From assembly GCA_002687015.1 (NCBI GenBank), contig NYZB01000086.1, forward strand, positions 1 through 39,488: a stretch of 39,488 nucleotides of DNA, written 5' to 3'. The translations under genes and the position numbers were made by a program. The notes under the pieces were generated by a model. That model was given only the letters and a program-made list of their open reading frames with translations. It was not told where the DNA came from and did no database searches. The stretch comes from Deltaproteobacteria bacterium (GTDB lineage Bacteria; Myxococcota_A; UBA9160; UBA6930). Shown here piece after piece: positions 14,999 to 38,471 of the stretch (the first letter of the stretch is position 1; every line of letters starts with the position of its first letter).

Positions 14999-17900
14999 TC
15001 AATTGGAGGGCCCGGCTTCTCCCTCCTCGGGGCGGGACGAGTCGGCGCCAGCCGGAAGGCCCCTGCCGTGGACGAGGGAAAAGAGAATCGGAATGACGAC
15101 GAGCGTCACCAGGGTGGCCGAGAGCACTCCACCGACCATCGGTGCCGCGATGCGGCGCATGGTCTCGGAGCCCGTTCCGGCGCCCCACATGATGGGGAGC
15201 AGCCCGATCACGTCGGAGGCGACGGTCATCAAGAGCGGCCTGGCCCGATGGGTGGCGCCCTCGACGATCGCGTCCCATAGATCCTTGCGGGTCCGGAGTC
15301 GTCCCTCGGCGAGCACCCGATCGCGAGCCTGATTCAGGAAGAGGAGCATGATCACGCCGGTCTCGGCCGTGAGCCCGGCAAGGGCGAGGAAGCCCGCTGC
15401 GACCGCGACGCTGCGGTCGTAGTCGAGGAGCCAGAGAAGGAGGACGCCGCCGATCAGTGCGAAGGGGATGCAGGCGATGACCATCAGCGTGTCGCTCACC
15501 CGCCGGAAGTTGAGATAGAGGAGCAGGAAGATGATGCCGAGCGTGATCGGGACGATCAGCAGCAGCCGCGTCGTCGCCCGCTCGATGTACTCGTACTGGC
15601 CGCTCCAGGAGAGCGTGTAGCCCGTGGGGATCGTCACTTCGTCCGCGAGCGCGCGCTTCGCCGCGGCTACGTAGCTGCCCACGTCGACGCCATCGAGGTC
15701 GATGTAGACCCAGGCGTTGGGTCGAGCGTTCTCGGTCTTGATGGACGGTGGCCCCTTGCGAAACTGGAAGCGCGCGAGCTGGCCGAGCGGCACCTGGGCG
15801 CCGCCTGGAATCGGGATGAGGACCCGTTTCAGGGAGGCGATGTCGTGCCGGAGCTCCCGGCTGTAGCGGATGTTGACCGGGTATCGCTCGAGGCCCTCGA
15901 TGGTCTGGCTCACGTTCATCCCGCCGATCGCGGTCTGGATCACGTCCTGAACGTCGCCGATGGTGAGCCCGTAGCGCGCAATCTGCCTGCGGTCGATGTC
16001 GAAGTCGAGGTAGTTCCCTCCGACGACCCGCTCGGCGTAGACGCTCTGGGTCCCCGGCAGCTCCCGAAGCGTCGCCTCGATCCCCTCTCCGATTCGCTGG
16101 AGCATGGCGAGGTCCGGTCCCGCGATCTTGATCCCGACCGGTGTCTTGATTCCCGTCGAGAGCATGTCGATCCGGGTCTTGATCGGCATGGTCCAGGCGT
16201 TGGTGAGGCCCGGGAAGCGGATCGCCGAATCGAGCTCGGTCACGAGCTTCTGGGTCGTCATCCCCTCACGCCACTCGGAAGGGGGACGAAGGGTGATGGT
16301 CGTCTCGATCATCGAGAGCGGTGCGGGATCCGTAGCCGTCTCGGCGCGGCCCACCTTTCCGAAGACCCGCTCCACCTCGGGGAAGCCCGCGATGATGCGG
16401 TCGGTCTGCTGCAGCAGATCCTTGGCCTTCGAGACCGAGACGCCAGGGAGCGTCGTCGGCATGTAGAGGAGGTCGCCCTCGAAGAGCGGCGGCATGAACT
16501 CGCATCCGAGCTGACGGGCCGGGGGGACGCTCGCCAGGAGCACGAGCAAGGCCGCGGCGAGGACGGCCCAGCGGTGGCGAAGCGCGCCGCGGATCAAGGG
16601 GCGGTAGAGCCAGAGAATCGCGCGGTTCAGGGGGTTTCGGCCCTCCGAGAGGATTCGCCCCCGAACCAGCCAGACCATGAGTGCGGGGACGACGGTGATC
16701 GAGAGAAGCGCGGCCCCGGCCATGGCGTAGGTCTTGGTGAAGGCCAGCGGCTTGAAGAGGCGTCCCTCCTGGGCCTCGAGCGTGAAGATGGGCAGGAAGG
16801 AGACCGTGATGATCAGCAGCGAGAAGAAGAGCGCAGGTCCCACCTCGGTGGCGGCGTCGACGAGGATCTCGAGCCTCGGCTTGTGGTCGCGGTCCCTCTC
16901 CAGGTGCTTGTGCGCGTTCTCCACCATGACGATGCCGGCATCGATCATCGTGCCGATGGCGATGGCGATTCCGCCGAGCGACATGATGTTCGCGTTGATG
17001 CCCTGGTAGTACATGACGATGAACGAGAAGAGGATTCCCAGGGGCAGCAGCAGGATCGCGACGAGCGCGCTTCGGAGGTGGACCAGGAAGACGAAGCAGA
17101 TCAGCGCGACGATGGCTCCCTGCTGCATGAGCTTCTCCTGGAGGTTGTCGACGGCGCGTTCGATGAGGGGAGAGCGGTCGTAGACGGGCACGATCTCGAC
17201 GCCCTCCGGAAGCGTCTCGGCCAGCTCGGCCAGGCGCTCTCGAACGCCCCGGATGGTCTCGAGGGCGTTCTCGCCGAAACGCATGATGACGATGCCGGCG
17301 GCCGCCTCACCCTCGCCGTCCAGGTCCGTGAGGCCCCGGCGTAGCTCCGGCCCGAGCGAGACCGTGCCGATGTTCCGGAGCAGGATGGGCGTCCCGTGCT
17401 CGTCGGCACCTACGGCGATCTCCTCCAGATCCTGCACCTCCTTCACGTAGCCCCGCCCGCGAATCATGAACTCGGACTCCGCCATCTCCACGAGGCGCCC
17501 GCCGACGTCGCTGTTGCTTCGCTCCACGGCGTAGCGGACCTGGCGCAACGCGACGCCGTAGGCGGCGAGCTTGTTCGGGTCGAGCTCGACCTGGTACTGA
17601 CGCACGTAGCCGCCGACACTCGCCACTTCGGCGACGCCCGGTACGGTCTGGAGCTCGTAGCGGAGCTGCCAATCCTGGATCGAGCGGAGCTCGGAGAGAT
17701 CGTGCTTCCCCGTCCGGTCGACGAGGGCGTACTCGTAGACCCATCCGACGCCCGTGGCGTCGGGCCCCAGCGTTGGCGTCACGCCCTTCGGAAGCCGACC
17801 CGAGACGAAGTTCAGGGCCTCGAGCACGCGGCTTCTGGCCCAATAGAGGTCCGTGCCGTCCTCGAAGATGACGTACACGAAGGAGAGTCCGAAGAAGGAG

Positions 17901-18154
17901 TAGCCGCGCACCACCTCCGCGTACGGCACCGCGAGCATGGCCGTCGACAGGGGATAGGTGACCTGGTCCTCGACGACCTGCGGCGCCTGCCCGGGGTACT
18001 CCGTCAGGAGGATGACCTGCACGTCCGAGAGGTCCGGGATGGCATCGAGGGGCGTATTCAGGACGGCATAGGCACCCCACGCCACCAGCGCGCTGACGCC
18101 GAGCGCGACGAAGAAGGGGTTTCGCGCAGAGGCCTCGACGATTCTCCTCAGCAT
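14999..18154 (-). CDS. cusA: heavy-metal efflux RND transporter, CusA/CzcA family
   Basis: ~1050 aa; NTPLDAIPDLSDVQVILLTEYPGQAPQVVEDQVTYPLSTAML, GGIAIAIGTMIDAGIVMVENAHKHLE. Start taken at MLRRIVEASARNPFF; the in-frame ORF extends to 18187. Confidence 0.93.
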   Translation of the reverse strand: MLRRIVEASARNPFFVALGVSALVAWGAYAVLNTPLDAIPDLSDVQVILLTEYPGQAPQVVEDQVTYPLSTAMLAVPYAEVVRGYSFFGLSFVYVIFEDGTDLYWARSRVLEALNFVSGRLPKGVTPTLGPDATGVGWVYEYALVDRTGKHDLSELRSIQDWQLRYELQTVPGVAEVASVGGYVRQYQVELDPNKLAAYGVALRQVRYAVERSNSDVGGRLVEMAESEFMIRGRGYVKEVQDLEEIAVGADEHGTPILLRNIGTVSLGPELRRGLTDLDGEGEAAAGIVIMRFGENALETIRGVRERLAELAETLPEGVEIVPVYDRSPLIERAVDNLQEKLMQQGAIVALICFVFLVHLRSALVAILLLPLGILFSFIVMYYQGINANIMSLGGIAIAIGTMIDAGIVMVENAHKHLERDRDHKPRLEILVDAATEVGPALFFSLLIITVSFLPIFTLEAQEGRLFKPLAFTKTYAMAGAALLSITVVPALMVWLVRGRILSEGRNPLNRAILWLYRPLIRGALRHRWAVLAAALLVLLASVPPARQLGCEFMPPLFEGDLLYMPTTLPGVSVSKAKDLLQQTDRIIAGFPEVERVFGKVGRAETATDPAPLSMIETTITLRPPSEWREGMTTQKLVTELDSAIRFPGLTNAWTMPIKTRIDMLSTGIKTPVGIKIAGPDLAMLQRIGEGIEATLRELPGTQSVYAERVVGGNYLDFDIDRRQIARYGLTIGDVQDVIQTAIGGMNVSQTIEGLERYPVNIRYSRELRHDIASLKRVLIPIPGGAQVPLGQLARFQFRKGPPSIKTENARPNAWVYIDLDGVDVGSYVAAAKRALADEVTIPTGYTLSWSGQYEYIERATTRLLLIVPITLGIIFLLLYLNFRRVSDTLMVIACIPFALIGGVLLLWLLDYDRSVAVAAGFLALAGLTAETGVIMLLFLNQARDRVLAEGRLRTRKDLWDAIVEGATHRARPLLMTVASDVIGLLPIMWGAGTGSETMRRIAAPMVGGVLSATLVTLVVIPILFSLVHGRGLPAGADSSRPEEGEAGPSN

Positions 18155-18158
18155 CGCG

Positions 18159-19526
18159 TCACTCCCCACCCTGGTCCTGGCGACCACCCTGGTGCGCCGA
18201 GGGGTCCATCGGGGCCATATCGGGCGGGGATTGGCCGCCCTCGTCGGGCTCTTCCGCCGCGAGCAGCTTTCGGACGGTTTCCTGCAGGTTGCTCTCGCTG
18301 TCGATCAGGAACTGGCTCGAGACGACGATCTCCTCTCCTTCGGAGAGGCCGTCGGTGATTTCGAGCCAGCCTTCACCCGAGTCGAGGCCCAGTGAGACCG
18401 GGCGTGGCGAGAAACGGCCTTCCCCGAGGGCGACGAAGACGAGGCTTCTCCTACCGGATCGAATCACGGCTTCGGAGGGAATCGCGACGACCGATTCCCT
18501 CGGAGCACCCTGGATGATGATGTTCCCGAACATCTCGGGTCGCAGCTCGCCATCCGGGTTCGGAAGCTCGAGCCGGACTTCCGCCGTGCGTGTCTTCGGA
18601 TCGAGGAAGGGCGAGATGTAGGTGAGGGGGCCCGAGTATTCCCTGCCGGGCAGGTAGGAGAGCTCCACGCTGCCTTGCTGTCCCAGCTCGAGCCAGGGGA
18701 GCTCGTACTCGTAGACGTCCGCCGTCACCCAGACCCGGGACAGGTCGGCGATGGTGTAGAGGTTCTGGTTGGGTCCGACCTCCATGCCGGAGCGAACGCC
18801 CAGCGCCGTGACGACCCCGCTCGTCGGCGCATGCAGGGTCAGCGTCTTCCGGATCTCGCCCGTTGCGAGGAGCCGGTCGATGTCCCGCTCCGAGATGTCC
18901 CAGAGCTCGAGTCGGCGTCGCGTGGCCTCGTAGAGGGAAGCTCCGCCGCCTCGCACGTCCGCGAAGGGGCTCTCTCCCGTGGTGTCCCGGTAGCGAGCCG
19001 CGACGAGGAGCTCCTCCTGGGTCGCGACGAGCTCCGGCGAGTAGACCTCGAGGAGCGGCTGGCCGCGTCGGACCGCCTGGCCGACGAAGTCGACGTTCAG
19101 CCTCTCGACCCAGCCTTGCACCTTCGTGTGGACGTGCTCGACGCGTCGCTCGTCGTAGGCGATGCGGCCCACGGCTCGAATCGAGCGGCTCAGGTCGCGG
19201 CGGACGACCCGCTCCGTCCGAACGCCAATGTTCTGGATGGTCTGCGAGTCGATCTCGACCGCGCCCTCCGTCGGCGCACCGCTCGAGCCCGGACAGACCG
19301 GCACCAGGTCCATCCCCATCGGGGACTTGCCGGGCTCCTCACGGACATAGGTCGGGTCCATCGGAGCCTTCCAGTAGAGCGGTTCGGCACCGCTGCAGGG
19401 GCCCTCGGCGGCCGCGGACGGCGGAGCAGGGGAAGGAGTGTGCCCTTCGAGCAGACCCCGGCCCCACCAGCCGGCGGCCACGGAGAAGACAATCGCAAGA
19501 ACGAGTAGGAGGAGCTTCTTCATCAT
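18159..19526 (-). CDS. cusB: RND efflux periplasmic adaptor, CusB-like, with N-terminal heavy-metal-binding segment
   Basis: MMKKLLLLVLAIVFSVAAGWWG signal; PLYWKAPMDPTYVREEPGKSPMGMDLVPVCPG segment, then barrel-sandwich adaptor. The upstream extension of the ORF to 19865 is spurious. Confidence 0.92.
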   Translation of the reverse strand: MMKKLLLLVLAIVFSVAAGWWGRGLLEGHTPSPAPPSAAAEGPCSGAEPLYWKAPMDPTYVREEPGKSPMGMDLVPVCPGSSGAPTEGAVEIDSQTIQNIGVRTERVVRRDLSRSIRAVGRIAYDERRVEHVHTKVQGWVERLNVDFVGQAVRRGQPLLEVYSPELVATQEELLVAARYRDTTGESPFADVRGGGASLYEATRRRLELWDISERDIDRLLATGEIRKTLTLHAPTSGVVTALGVRSGMEVGPNQNLYTIADLSRVWVTADVYEYELPWLELGQQGSVELSYLPGREYSGPLTYISPFLDPKTRTAEVRLELPNPDGELRPEMFGNIIIQGAPRESVVAIPSEAVIRSGRRSLVFVALGEGRFSPRPVSLGLDSGEGWLEITDGLSEGEEIVVSSQFLIDSESNLQETVRKLLAAEEPDEGGQSPPDMAPMDPSAHQGGRQDQGGE

Positions 19527-20908
19527 CGCAAGGTCTCCCCGGCAGCGGCCTCGAGGGCGGCGTAGGCCTGTCGTCGGTCGGCTTCCGCGCGAACCGCTCG
19601 CAGCTCGGCGTTCAGGAGCCGCACCTGGCTGTCGAGCAGACCCAGGAACTCGACTCGGCCGACCTGGTAGCCGGAGCGACTGGACTCCAAGGACTGCCGG
19701 GCCTGAGGCACCAGACCCGTCCGAAGCAGCGTCGTCTCGGAGTCCGCACGGGTGAGCTCGGCGTGTGCAGAGCGAAGGGTCCCGAGGACCGAAGCTCGAG
19801 CGTCCCGATAGCGAGCCTCCGAACGGCGGAGCAGGGCCCGCCTCTCGGCGGCCCGGGCCTTCCACTTCGAGCGGTTCAGGGGCAGTCGAAGCGTGACCGA
19901 GGCAGCGAGGAAGTCATCGCCATCCACGGTGTCACCGGCAACGCGTCGTCGGACGCGGTAGCCGACGCCCAGATCGAAGTCCGGGTAGCCCTCGAGCTCC
20001 GCGACGCGAACCGCGTGTCGGGCCTGCTCGACCTCGGACTCGAGCACGAGCAGCCGGGCGTTCTTCGCCTCCAGGCCACTCGCCAGCGCTCGGAGGTCGG
20101 GGACCCTCGAGGCGTCCGAGAGAGCGTCGGTTCGAGGAAAACGGATGGCGATGGAGAGGTCCAGGAGACTCGAGAGCCTTGCTGAGGCTCGCTCGATCGC
20201 CGCTTCGCGCCCGAGCTTCTCGTCCAGGAGCGCAGTGAGCTCGACCTGGGCCCGAAGCACGTCCTGTTGGAGCCCTTGCCCCACCCGGTACTTGACCTCG
20301 GCGACCCGAACGAGCTGGCGCAGGAGCTCGATGTTGCTCTCCGTGATCTGCAGCGCCCGCTGCGAGAAGCCGAGCTCGGCCCATGCGGCTTCCACCTGGG
20401 AGGCCACGGCGAGCTCCCGGTCCATGACGGCGAAGGAGGCCGCCTCGGCGCCCGCCCGGGCCACGGCCTCGCGGTTCGAGAGAAGGCCGGGAAAGGGCAG
20501 GCGTTGATTCAGCCCCAGCTGATGCCCCGACAGGGGCGTGGACTCGAAGTCGAGGTCGCCGATCGGGATGTTGCTCGCCTCGTAGCGGAGCCTCGGGTCG
20601 TCGAGGGCTCCCGCCGGCAGGATCCGGCTGCTCGCGGCGTCGCGCGCGGCCAGGTCGGCGGCAATGGCAGGGTTCTCGGCAGCAGCGCGCTCGAGGCACC
20701 AGGCAAGCGGAAGCGGCGAGGGAAGAGGCTCCGCTTCCCCGAGCGAGGCGAGGAGGGTCGGATCCCCCATCGCGCCCCGTGTCTCGCTGCCGTGCGCCTG
20801 GATGCAGGTCGCCGCGAGGGTGATGAACACCCACGCGAGTGCTGCCGCGGCCCGTCCGGTCACGGCGAAGTCCGTTGACCGGCCGGGTTTTCGGGACTCG
20901 ATGGCCAT
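19523..20908 (-). CDS. TolC-family outer membrane efflux protein (CusC/CzcC-like)
   Basis: PLPLAWCLERAAAENPAIAADLAARDAA, LGLNQRLPFPGLLSNREAVARA, SGYQVGRVEFLGLLDSQVRLLNAELRAVRAEADRRQAYAALEAAAG. Start taken at MAIESRKPGR. Confidence 0.9.
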   Translation of the reverse strand: MAIESRKPGRSTDFAVTGRAAAALAWVFITLAATCIQAHGSETRGAMGDPTLLASLGEAEPLPSPLPLAWCLERAAAENPAIAADLAARDAASSRILPAGALDDPRLRYEASNIPIGDLDFESTPLSGHQLGLNQRLPFPGLLSNREAVARAGAEAASFAVMDRELAVASQVEAAWAELGFSQRALQITESNIELLRQLVRVAEVKYRVGQGLQQDVLRAQVELTALLDEKLGREAAIERASARLSSLLDLSIAIRFPRTDALSDASRVPDLRALASGLEAKNARLLVLESEVEQARHAVRVAELEGYPDFDLGVGYRVRRRVAGDTVDGDDFLAASVTLRLPLNRSKWKARAAERRALLRRSEARYRDARASVLGTLRSAHAELTRADSETTLLRTGLVPQARQSLESSRSGYQVGRVEFLGLLDSQVRLLNAELRAVRAEADRRQAYAALEAAAGETLR

Positions 20909-21043
20909 GTTTCCTCTCCTGAAGTGACGCACCCATCGCGACCGCTTCGCGCGGCCGCACGCAGAGAGAGCGCCGACGGCGAGGGGCGCTCCCGCGAACC
21001 CCGGAGACCTGCCCTTCGTGGCCGAGTCTCGGGGTGCGGTCTC

Positions 21044-21579: not shown

Positions 21580-22044
21580 ATGGACAGGGACCCGCGCAGG
21601 ATCGGTCCGTTGGGGTGGCTCGGCCTCGTCTTCGTGCTCGCCTGCGGCGGAGACGGGCCCACGGCCATGTTCCCGGGTGGCCCCCTCACCAGCGGCGAGT
21701 GGATCGAGGAGACCGAGGTCGATTGGTCCTTCGCCAGCGAGATCGAGGAGATCGAGCTCCAGAGCGGTGGAAGCTCGCGCACGACCTGGATCGCCGTGAT
21801 CGGCGAGCAGGCCTTCGTGCCCTGCAGCCTCGAGTTCCCTCCCTTCAAGACCTGGCACGAGGACGCTCTCACGGATCCGAGCGCCGTCGTGCGGGTCGGG
21901 GGCAAGCGCTACCGGCGCACCCTCCAGAAGGTCGAAGACGCGCAGCTCCAGGCGGAGCTCGAGGCCCTGGTCGAAGAGAAGTACGGAGGCTCGCCCGGCG
22001 ACGGCGGCGTCTGGTTCTTCCTGCTCGCGTCACCGGCGGGCTAG
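21580..22044 (+). CDS. hypothetical lipoprotein, possibly DUF2255/split-barrel-like
   Basis: Lipobox-like LVFVLACGG; TTWIAVIGEQAFVPCSLEFPPFKTWHEDALTDPSAVVRVGGKRYRRTLQ. Confidence 0.6.
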   Translation: MDRDPRRIGPLGWLGLVFVLACGGDGPTAMFPGGPLTSGEWIEETEVDWSFASEIEEIELQSGGSSRTTWIAVIGEQAFVPCSLEFPPFKTWHEDALTDPSAVVRVGGKRYRRTLQKVEDAQLQAELEALVEEKYGGSPGDGGVWFFLLASPAG

Positions 22045-22047
22045 CCC

Positions 22048-22224
22048 TTGAGCCGGATCTTCGGGGAGCTTCGCCAGAACGCCTACGTCGTCCCCGACAT
22101 CGCGGCTGGCCCCGGAGCTGCGACCGAGCTGTCCGAAGTGAGTGGAGGCAAGGGGCTCTTCTTCGGGCGGATCCCGAAGGCGGCGGCAAGCTGGTACGGC
22201 TCGAACCCGATCCGGCGACGATGA
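22048..22224 (+). pseudogene. short VOC/glyoxalase-like N-terminal fragment
   Basis: TTG-initiated ORF: LSRIFGELRQNAYVVPDIAAG...; RQNAYVVPDI resembles the N-terminal VOC strand, but the ORF stops after 58 codons. Its TGA overlaps the next ATG (ATGA). Confidence 0.3.
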
Positions 22225-23168
22225 CCATGGCCGGAAGCAAGCCGCCGGTCGACTACATCCGCCGCACCGAGGAGCAATACAGCGCCCTGGGCTACCCCGT
22301 CTATCGGTGGGTGGAGAGCGAGACGCCGCCGCCCTGGGCTCCGGTCCGCAAGCCGCTCTCCGAGAGCCGCCTCGGCCTCGTCGCGTCGGGGGGCATCTAC
22401 GTCGCCGGCCAGGTCGCCTTCCACTTCAAGGACGACTTCAGCTACCGGGTGATCGATACCTCGACGCCCGCGAGCGAGCTGCGGGCGACCCACTTCGCCT
22501 ACGACCTGACGGATGCGCGCAGCGACCCGAACGTGGTCTTCCCCACGGCCACCCTGCGCGGGTTGGTGGCCGAGGGCAAGCTCGGTGCGCTCTCCGAGCG
22601 CGCCTACACCTTCATGGGCGGGATCTACTCCTCGCGGAAGGTTCGGGACGTCCTGGCGCCGGCCCTGGCGGACCGGCTCGTCCAGGACGAGGTCGATCTG
22701 GCGCTGCTGGTGCCCGTCTGACCCGTCTGCCATCAGTCCGTGGGACTGATCGCAAGGGAGATCGAAGGCCGGGGGATTCCGACCCTCTCGATGACCAGCG
22801 CCCTCTCGATCACGCGCTCGGTGAACCCCCCGCGCGCGGCCTTCCTCGACTACCCGCTTGGCCACACCACGGGCAAGCCCCACGAGCCCGCCCTGCAACG
22901 CAGCCTGCTCCTCGATGCACTGACCGCCTTCGAGACCCTGGAGGAGCCCGGAGCCGTGCTGGAACTGCCCTACACGTGGGAAGAAGGCGATGCGTGGAAG
23001 GACCACGTGATGCGTCCGGATCCGTCGGCCGGGAGTGGAGAGGCGGCCGACGACCGGACGGCCCGCCACGACACGCCGCAGTACCAGACCGAGCGGGACC
23101 GGGAGTTGGCTCAGGAGGCGCTTGCCTCCGGGGGTTGCGAGACCTGCGTGTTCCTGTCCGACCCTTGA
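22221..23168 (+). CDS. glycine/sarcosine/betaine reductase selenoprotein B (GrdB)-related selenoprotein; UGA at 22719..22721 read as Sec (residue 167)
   Basis: Same-frame continuity across TGA: ...ADRLVQDEVDLALLVPV-[TGA]-PVCHQSVGLIAREIEGRGIPTLSMTSALSITRSVNPPRAAFLDYPLGHTTGKPHEPAL...GGCETCVFLSDP*. Makes a U-P-V-C (UxxC) motif; hairpin immediately downstream. Confidence 0.87.
22732..22750 (+). promoter_or_regulatory. bacterial SECIS-like hairpin
   Basis: ATCAGTCC-GTG-GGACTGAT: perfect 8-bp stem starting 10 nt after the UGA; apical loop begins 18 nt after the UGA with a G at loop position 1. Confidence 0.75.
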
Positions 23169-23429
23169 GCCCGACCCGTCCAACGGCCCTCCCGTCATCG
23201 GGTCCGCGACGACTGGCTCTTCCACCTCCGCGAGGATCCGACGGAGCAGGAGGACCTGGCCGCGAGAGAGCCCGAACGGGTGGCCGCCCTGAAGCGGCTC
23301 CTGGCCGAGCACAATGCGGAGCAGGCGCCCAGTGCCTGGCCCGGGCGAACCGAGTCGCCCGTCAACATCGACAAGACCCTGCTCGACGCCGATGCTCCGG
23401 ACAACGAGTACATCGACTTCCCGAACTGA
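23169..23429 (+). pseudogene. C-terminal remnant of a sulfatase
   Basis: Frame reads ...VRDDWLFHLREDPTEQEDLAAREPERVAALKRLLAEHNAEQAPSAWPGRTESPVNIDKTLLDADAPDNEYIDFPN*, a sulfatase C-terminal style, with no catalytic domain upstream and no obvious start. Confidence 0.6.
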
Positions 23430-37675: not shown

Positions 37676-37960
37676 ATGGAAACCGACGACGTCGTACGCG
37701 TGCTGGCCGCCCTCGCCCAGGAGACGCGCCTCGAGGCCTTCCGCCTGCTGGTCCAGGCCGGACCCGAGGGGCTGCCCGCCGGAGAGATCGCCGAGCAGCT
37801 CGACGTGCCGGCCCCGACCCTCTCCTTTCATCTGAAGGCCCTGGCCCAGGGCGACCTGGTTCACGTCCAACGGGACGGACGCTCTCTCTTCTACGCTCCC
37901 AACTTCGCGACTTTGAACGAGGTTCTTGCGTTCCTGACGAAGAACTGCTGCGGGGGTTGA
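37676..37960 (+). CDS. arsR: ArsR/SmtB family regulator with C-terminal CC pair
   Basis: LAALAQETRLEAFRLLVQAGPEGLPAGEIAEQLDVPAPTLSFHLKALAQGDLVHVQRDGRSLFYAPNF...FLTKNCCGG. Confidence 0.93.
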   Translation: METDDVVRVLAALAQETRLEAFRLLVQAGPEGLPAGEIAEQLDVPAPTLSFHLKALAQGDLVHVQRDGRSLFYAPNFATLNEVLAFLTKNCCGG

Positions 37961-37969
37961 CCTGGACTT

Positions 37970-37993
37970 ATAATTCTATATATTTGGAATTAT
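37970..37993. promoter_or_regulatory. AT-rich operator/promoter candidate between arsR and the VOC gene
   Basis: ATAATTC-N10-GAATTAT perfect 7-bp arms in an A+T island within a GC-rich window. Confidence 0.5.
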
Positions 37994-38012
37994 CAAATCA
38001 AGGAGATCCCCG

Positions 38013-38471
38013 ATGCGACTTCAGCTCGCTCTCAACGTGAAGGACCTCGACGCGGCCATCGACTTCTACGGGAAGATGTTCGGAGCCGAGGTGCACAAGC
38101 GGAAGCCCGGCTACGCGAACTTCGCCATCGACGAGCCCCCCCTGAAGCTGGTGCTCTTCGAGTCCTCCGACGCGCCGGATCGGATCAATCACCTCGGCGT
38201 CGAGGTCTTCGCCGACGAGCAGGTCGGCCAGGCCACCGATCGCCTGAAGGCCGCCGGCCTGGAGACCAGCGTCGAAGACGAGGCCACCTGCTGCTACGCC
38301 AAGCAGAACAAGGTCTGGGCCACCGAGCCCGACGGTCTGCGCTGGGAGTGGTACAAGGTCGTCGAAGACAGCGAGACCTTCTTCGCCGATTCCGCCGCCA
38401 AGGCCGATTCCGAGCCCGCCCGGGGGGCCGCCTCCGAGAGCGGGGGCGCCGGGTCGCTCGGCTGCTGCTGA
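38013..38471 (+). CDS. ArsI/CadI family VOC metalloenzyme
   Basis: LQLALNVKDLDAAIDFYGKMFGAEVHKRKPGYANFAIDEPPLKLVL, NHLGVEV, ATCCYAKQNKVWATEPDGLRWEWY; AAGGAG ahead of ATG. Confidence 0.88.
   Translation: MRLQLALNVKDLDAAIDFYGKMFGAEVHKRKPGYANFAIDEPPLKLVLFESSDAPDRINHLGVEVFADEQVGQATDRLKAAGLETSVEDEATCCYAKQNKVWATEPDGLRWEWYKVVEDSETFFADSAAKADSEPARGAASESGGAGSLGCC

Follow-up and report, generated by a model that had tools for sequence, protein, structure and literature searches.

A predicted stand-alone selenoprotein of the PrdB-like superfamily with a C-terminal CxxC extension in a deltaproteobacterial genome

In the 39,488-nucleotide stretch of DNA analysed here (the window), the ORF list contains two ORFs, 21615..22721 and 22740..23168, which are in the same frame and join at the TGA at 22719-22721. 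The first-pass annotation had proposed that the two encode one protein read across this TGA, and that the second ORF has no credible start of its own. Both proposals held: the homologs read through the codon in every case, and the GTG at 22740-22742 makes up the whole apical loop (three bases) of a hairpin. Sequence comparison confirmed the reading of 22221-23168 as a single gene of 315 codons, predicted to encode a selenoprotein, and not as two ORFs. Its features are the following.

22221..23168, plus strand: selenoprotein gene of the PF07355/PrdB-like superfamily, 315 codons with Sec as codon 167 (Pfam GRDB match of 35 bits)
22719..22721, plus strand: in-frame TGA, predicted Sec167 (the U of UPVC), TGA in 110 of 110 loci and aligned with the Sec of PrdB
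22728..22730, plus strand: Cys170, the presumed resolving Cys of the UxxC motif, conserved in at least 90% of 58 diverse rows of the alignment
22732..22750, plus strand: putative bacterial SECIS hairpin, AUCAGUCC-GUG-GGACUGAU, with 97% pairing, compensatory changes and constraint on the stem codons
22980..23165, plus strand: C-terminal extension, residues 254-315, with a conserved CxxC at its end (the match to the PrdB model stops at residue 253)
23136..23147, plus strand: CxxC of the tail, Cys306-Cys309

The start listed for the first ORF, 21615, appears to be a poor reading of the upstream region, because the homologs align from residue 9 onward. They start no more than 10 residues after the ATG at 22221, with 21615-22220 lying outside the conserved protein, and the start of the latter is probably at or near this ATG. 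The ATG is overlapped by the TGA of a short ORF (22051-22224) that has no Pfam match and the start of which presumably resembles a glyoxalase/VOC protein before the sequence diverges. The gene's own terminator is the TGA at 23166-23168. Directly 3' of it lies an ORF (23169-23429), also lacking a Pfam match, which we take to resemble a sulfatase C-terminus (DWLFHLREDPTEQEDLAAREPERV...) and which is possibly a gene remnant. The window also encodes P450, acyl-CoA ligase, enoyl-CoA hydratase and aldehyde dehydrogenase genes, a content that suggests an aerobic catabolic lifestyle. An RND-type efflux set, consisting of an AcrB/D/F-family pump and an outer membrane efflux protein, is found at 14999-20932 on the minus strand, and at 37676-38471 on the plus strand an ArsR-type regulator precedes a glyoxalase-family protein with a terminal CC, a pair that is possibly arsenic-related.

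The TGA was present at exactly the aligned codon in all 110 loci examined, a set that combines the relatives from a genome-contig scan with family-level genomes and that includes the window itself and some duplicates. The 80 nearest relatives kept from the scan (56-72% identity) span Gammaproteobacteria, Myxococcota, Acidobacteria, Chloroflexi, Acidimicrobiia, Binatota, Entotheonella and others; marine and soil MAGs are among them, the marine bins including TMED88, ALOHA and similar. The source organism is probably related to the Myxococcota: a genome of its family (G012) has this gene in a form identical to that of MAG UBA6930, labelled Deltaproteobacteria, and members of the order grouped with Myxococcota bins in the tree. 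No relative was detected in the viral contigs searched. The superfamily is carried by 55 of 284 genomes of the phylum, and all matches spanning the site contain the TGA; the two TGA-less matches in these genomes either end before the site or begin past it. The first-pass annotation had pointed to residue 167 as the position at which homologs should have U or C. Besides the 110 TGA codons, Cys was found there in three homologs (L184, L185 and L188), and the Sec of the window protein aligned with the Sec of the Enterococcus and Acetoanaerobium PrdB proteins and with the Cys of both Paraclostridium PrdB and the Cys-type relatives from Haematobacter and Roseomonas. Homologs truly ending at VPV followed by a stop, which it had named as evidence to the contrary, were not seen; every homolog continues through the UGA. 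One of the search patterns had Cys at this position and would be expected to pick up any close homolog reading PVCPVCHQ, yet the 80 relatives kept include none. Protein identity was 66% over residues 9-166 and 64% over residues 168-253, and nucleotide changes were third-position-biased both before and after the UGA.

The stem of the putative SECIS element lies 13-20/24-31 nt from the UGA, and its apical loop is GUG (22740-22742). Codons forming the stem were strongly preferred over the background of the same genes (CAT, 76% vs 36%; CAG, 90% vs 65%; TCC, 90% vs 18%; GGA, 92% vs 15%; CTG, 88% vs 40%; p down to 6e-50), whereas the loop codon, GTN, showed no departure from background, the synonymous constraint being confined to the stem codons. 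CAA occurred exclusively with TTG, and CAG almost exclusively with CTG, which is a compensatory pair (8/8, p=1e-9). Furthermore, pairing at the six core positions, scored over 123 distinct sequences that represent all subfamilies, was seen in 97% of cells, compared with 86% when rows were shuffled (0 of 2000 shuffles reached 97%) and at most 67% in slid registers; pairs 17-27 and 18-26 were made by several Watson-Crick types, as expected of compensatory change. A comparative test was needed here, as the single-sequence folding z-score of a 60-nt stretch (-0.05) was uninformative. The hairpin that had been placed after the UGA from the single sequence is thus borne out by codon constraint, pairing and compensatory changes.

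Genes for selA, selB and selD were detected above cut-offs in the source genome (4.88 Mb, 279 contigs, 82% complete), and with the conserved TGA and the hairpin they argue for the selenoprotein reading. For the remaining member of the sel set, the tRNA-Sec gene (selC), nothing scored above cut-off in this 82%-complete assembly. Its absence is most simply an assembly gap, because the other 13 carriers among the 14 genomes tested all have tRNA-Sec (68-74 bits), four single-chromosome assemblies included. Across the 284 phylum genomes, selA was present in 54 of 55 carriers and in 125 of 229 non-carriers (Fisher p=1.5e-11, a significance inflated by kinship). We conclude that sequence evidence could hardly give stronger support to Sec decoding of the UGA at 22719.

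Two further GRDB-like genes of the source genome have an in-frame TGA and a hairpin in the identical register, although of different sequence. One (G000:C160:2378-3124; L022/L126) reads LLVPS-U-PVCHQ and lies about 3 kb from selD (C160:6095-7006); the other (G000:C9:3383-3994; L023/L133) reads LLTPV-U-PLCPR. Longer paralogs (L124, L133, L134 and L135; about 370-420 aa) have an additional C-terminal region, which matched no Pfam family in the two that were scanned, L124 and L133. Two genomes of the same class (G156 and G166) have six to seven superfamily matches each, nearly all with an in-frame TGA; this is a selenoprotein family expansion.

The protein matched Pfam PF07355 (GRDB) with 35 bits against a gathering cut-off of 22. 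Its best NCBIfam model was that of PrdB (TIGR04483), with 159 bits against an equivalog cut-off of 300; the close relatives tested scored 158-171 bits, and a true PrdB of Enterococcus scores 400. The GrdB-type models gave 51-53 bits, all under their cut-offs (52 vs 602). The initial description of the protein as GrdB-related is therefore correct at the level of the superfamily, but among characterised proteins its closest relative is PrdB, not GrdB (159 bits for PrdB vs 52 for GrdB). The PF07355 matches stop at model position 345 of 347, just ahead of the Sec codon, as if the model had been built from proteins truncated at the UGA. The window protein is homologous to PrdB of Enterococcus raffinosus and Acetoanaerobium noterae over residues 35-253, with a UGA-encoded Sec at the matching position of a UxxC motif, but it reads UPVCHQ where PrdB reads UGTCHR, and carries two parts that PrdB lacks, a PVDYIxRTRxxYxxLGY segment at the N-terminus and 62 C-terminal residues ending in CxxC. 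It shares the superfamily match above the Pfam cut-off and the UxxC with GrdB, GrdF and GrdH (PF07355, TIGR01917/01918), but is about 120 residues shorter than GrdB and is not encoded in a grd operon. Two Cys-type proteins annotated as "glycine/sarcosine/betaine reductase selenoprotein B family protein" (L184 and L185) have the same N-terminal extension and active-site position, and their genes likewise lack Grd or Prd genes alongside; unlike the window protein, they have Cys for Sec, lack the CxxC tail, and are about 36% identical to it. They branch with another Sec subfamily in the tree. L184 is on a Haematobacter plasmid, with a class III aminotransferase and cobalamin genes next to it, and L185 on a Roseomonas plasmid next to selO.

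The first-pass annotation saw no Grd partner near the gene, and the wider search agreed with this. PF09338, which covers PrdA and the GrdE-type subunits, was not detected in the source genome (82% complete), in the 284 phylum genomes or in two single-chromosome Gammaproteobacteria carriers; the 14 standard control genomes likewise lacked a PF09338 signal, but an Enterococcus record, added as a positive control, was detected. Two Entotheonella chromosomes have PF09338 genes, which lie away from the tail-less relative. The window gene is not adjacent to prdA, prdC or prdD, and its neighbours are unrelated. All-versus-all clustering of the flanking ORFs of 80 loci yielded common catabolic families and local synteny only, and of seven window neighbours tested, none was found near the relatives. 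An assignment of function from the operon was dropped, since the flanking genes are not conserved. These results show that the window protein is a stand-alone PF07355/PrdB-like member and does not belong, as a subunit, to any recognisable cluster for glycine, sarcosine, betaine or D-proline reductase.

The only Sec or Cys residues of the window protein are U167, C170, C306 and C309; both the UxxC motif (UPVC) and the second, C-terminal CxxC noted from the single sequence are present. U167 was invariant in 58 diverse rows of the alignment, as were D95, D102, P108, P165, P168, L176, E182, R205, G214 and Q226, and the C-terminal extension has its own conserved residues (W259, D277, R279, R282, PQYQ and D293). 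By reading of the alignment, 76 of the 80 nearest relatives have the tail CxxC; a regular-expression search found 74, and two more (L032 and L099) carry the motif slightly farther from the end. The CxxC-tailed sequences form nearly one group in the tree, and the four tail-less relatives (L085, L088, L098 and L077) are from Entotheonella, Desulfosarcina and another MAG. The members of one subfamily (L109, L110, L111 and L158) read UPLDHQ, with Asp in place of the resolving Cys, and retain Sec and the hairpin; therefore, the dithiol logic of UxxC is not universal in the superfamily. AlphaFold2 predicted an alpha/beta core with high confidence (pLDDT 93.9), which extends to most of the tail, and placed U167 after a strand (160-164) at the N-terminus of a helix (168-183). 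Foldseek with the predicted model retrieved no solved structure at E below 0.001, and neither the family profile nor PrdB matched a PDB entry by sequence.

We consider it likely that the window protein is a stand-alone Sec redox enzyme in which the tail CxxC, fed by thioredoxin, re-reduces the Sec167-Cys170 pair. A redox role of this pair is suggested by the homology and the invariance, which point to Sec167 as the nucleophile. Sec167 would attack a small electrophilic or oxidised substrate, Cys170 would resolve the adduct by forming a Se-S bond, and the tail CxxC (306/309) would relay electrons to this bond from a dithiol donor, either thioredoxin or one like it. A single polypeptide would thus do the job of PrdB without partner proteins or an amino-acid-activating pyruvoyl subunit. 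The relay is a proposal made because the protein has no Sec or Cys other than these four residues; the four relatives without the tail weaken it, as does the UPLD subfamily, in which Sec is retained but the resolving Cys is not. As to the reaction, our first guess, by analogy with GrdB and PrdB chemistry, would be the reductive cleavage of a C-X bond alpha to a carbonyl, and our second the reduction of an oxidant, peroxide or disulfide. It is conceivable, although we regard it as doubtful, that the whole Sec-only stand-alone branch, found in bacteria that look aerobic, is a class of self-contained selenoreductases not described before, in which the CxxC relay replaces the partners, acting in C-X cleavage of non-amino-acid substrates, with parallel Sec paralogs (the UPLD, UPDCC, UPNCT, UPMCN and UPLCP types) serving other substrates.

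The UGA might instead be a true stop, arising from a truncated pseudogene, two genes or a sequencing error, as the standard genetic code and the splitting of the gene by ORF callers would have it. The chance of this is negligible, given an identical TGA in 110 of 110 loci from independent assemblies, protein conservation that goes on past the codon, the SECIS constraint and covariation, the GTG of the second ORF in the hairpin loop, and the co-occurring Sec machinery; the two-gene and pseudogene readings were ruled out on the TGA, the codon constraint and the covariation. An alternative genetic code was also rejected, because TGA is the terminal stop of the gene itself and of 57 of the 109 loci with a readable one. 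It is very improbable, too, that the protein is a genuine PrdB (D-proline reductase) or GrdB subunit with partner genes elsewhere in the genome. TIGR04483 is its best NCBIfam match, the two Sec residues are aligned, and marine relatives are labelled PrdB in PMC1088965 and PMC2398784; however, the sub-cut-off scores and the failure to find partner genes in the source genome, the 284 phylum genomes and the two Gammaproteobacteria carriers, on which true PrdB or GrdB membership was rejected, tell against it, as do the location outside any prd cluster and the N-terminal segment and 62-residue tail that PrdB does not have.

A closer competitor, possible although less probable than the Sec redox enzyme outlined above, is an antioxidant or thiol-disulfide selenoprotein (a peroxidase or disulfide reductase) in which the same Sec167-Cys170 and tail chemistry acts on an oxidant. 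UxxC with a CxxC tail resembles the logic of thiol oxidoreductases, the carriers look aerobic (the P450 in the window; marine and soil MAGs), and up to 7 superfamily matches per genome suggest several substrates. On the other hand, the Pfam scan detected no domain of the thioredoxin, peroxiredoxin or glutaredoxin type, and the fold search retrieved no thiol oxidoreductase. Those superfamily members whose function is known cleave C-N bonds reductively, and for C-F cleavage a Grd-type system has been put forward (PMC10838667).

Abundant PrdB-labelled pfam07355 selenoproteins have been on record from seawater since 2005, with 42 genes counted in the Sargasso Sea (PMC1088965) and 235 Sec forms in the GOS data (PMC2398784); reviews of 2022 and 2026 list them as "D-proline reductase" (PMC9312934, PMC13188914). 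In their accessible portions, the first two papers establish no function for those outside proline reductase clusters and give family counts under the proline reductase name. Compared by description only, these proteins share with the window gene pfam07355, UxxC and ocean abundance, and the window gene has marine relatives; the marine "PrdB" selenoproteins likely belong to its subfamily. The suggestion that the protein may be undescribed thus stands in part: the kind has been known from the sea since 2005, but a keyword search of the open-access literature, as far as its accessible text goes, returned no description of a stand-alone, CxxC-tailed, apparently Sec-only subfamily, and in this the apparent novelty lies.

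In genomes and metagenomes such proteins are annotated as subunits of proline or glycine reductase, or are cut in two at the UGA. Being encoded by one gene and ending in a CxxC tail, the enzyme lends itself directly to testing in vitro. If the proteins are stand-alone enzymes, much of the reported marine "PrdB" may be uninformative on proline reduction, and bacteria with no sign of amino-acid fermentation would be maintaining a costly, Sec-only enzyme family.
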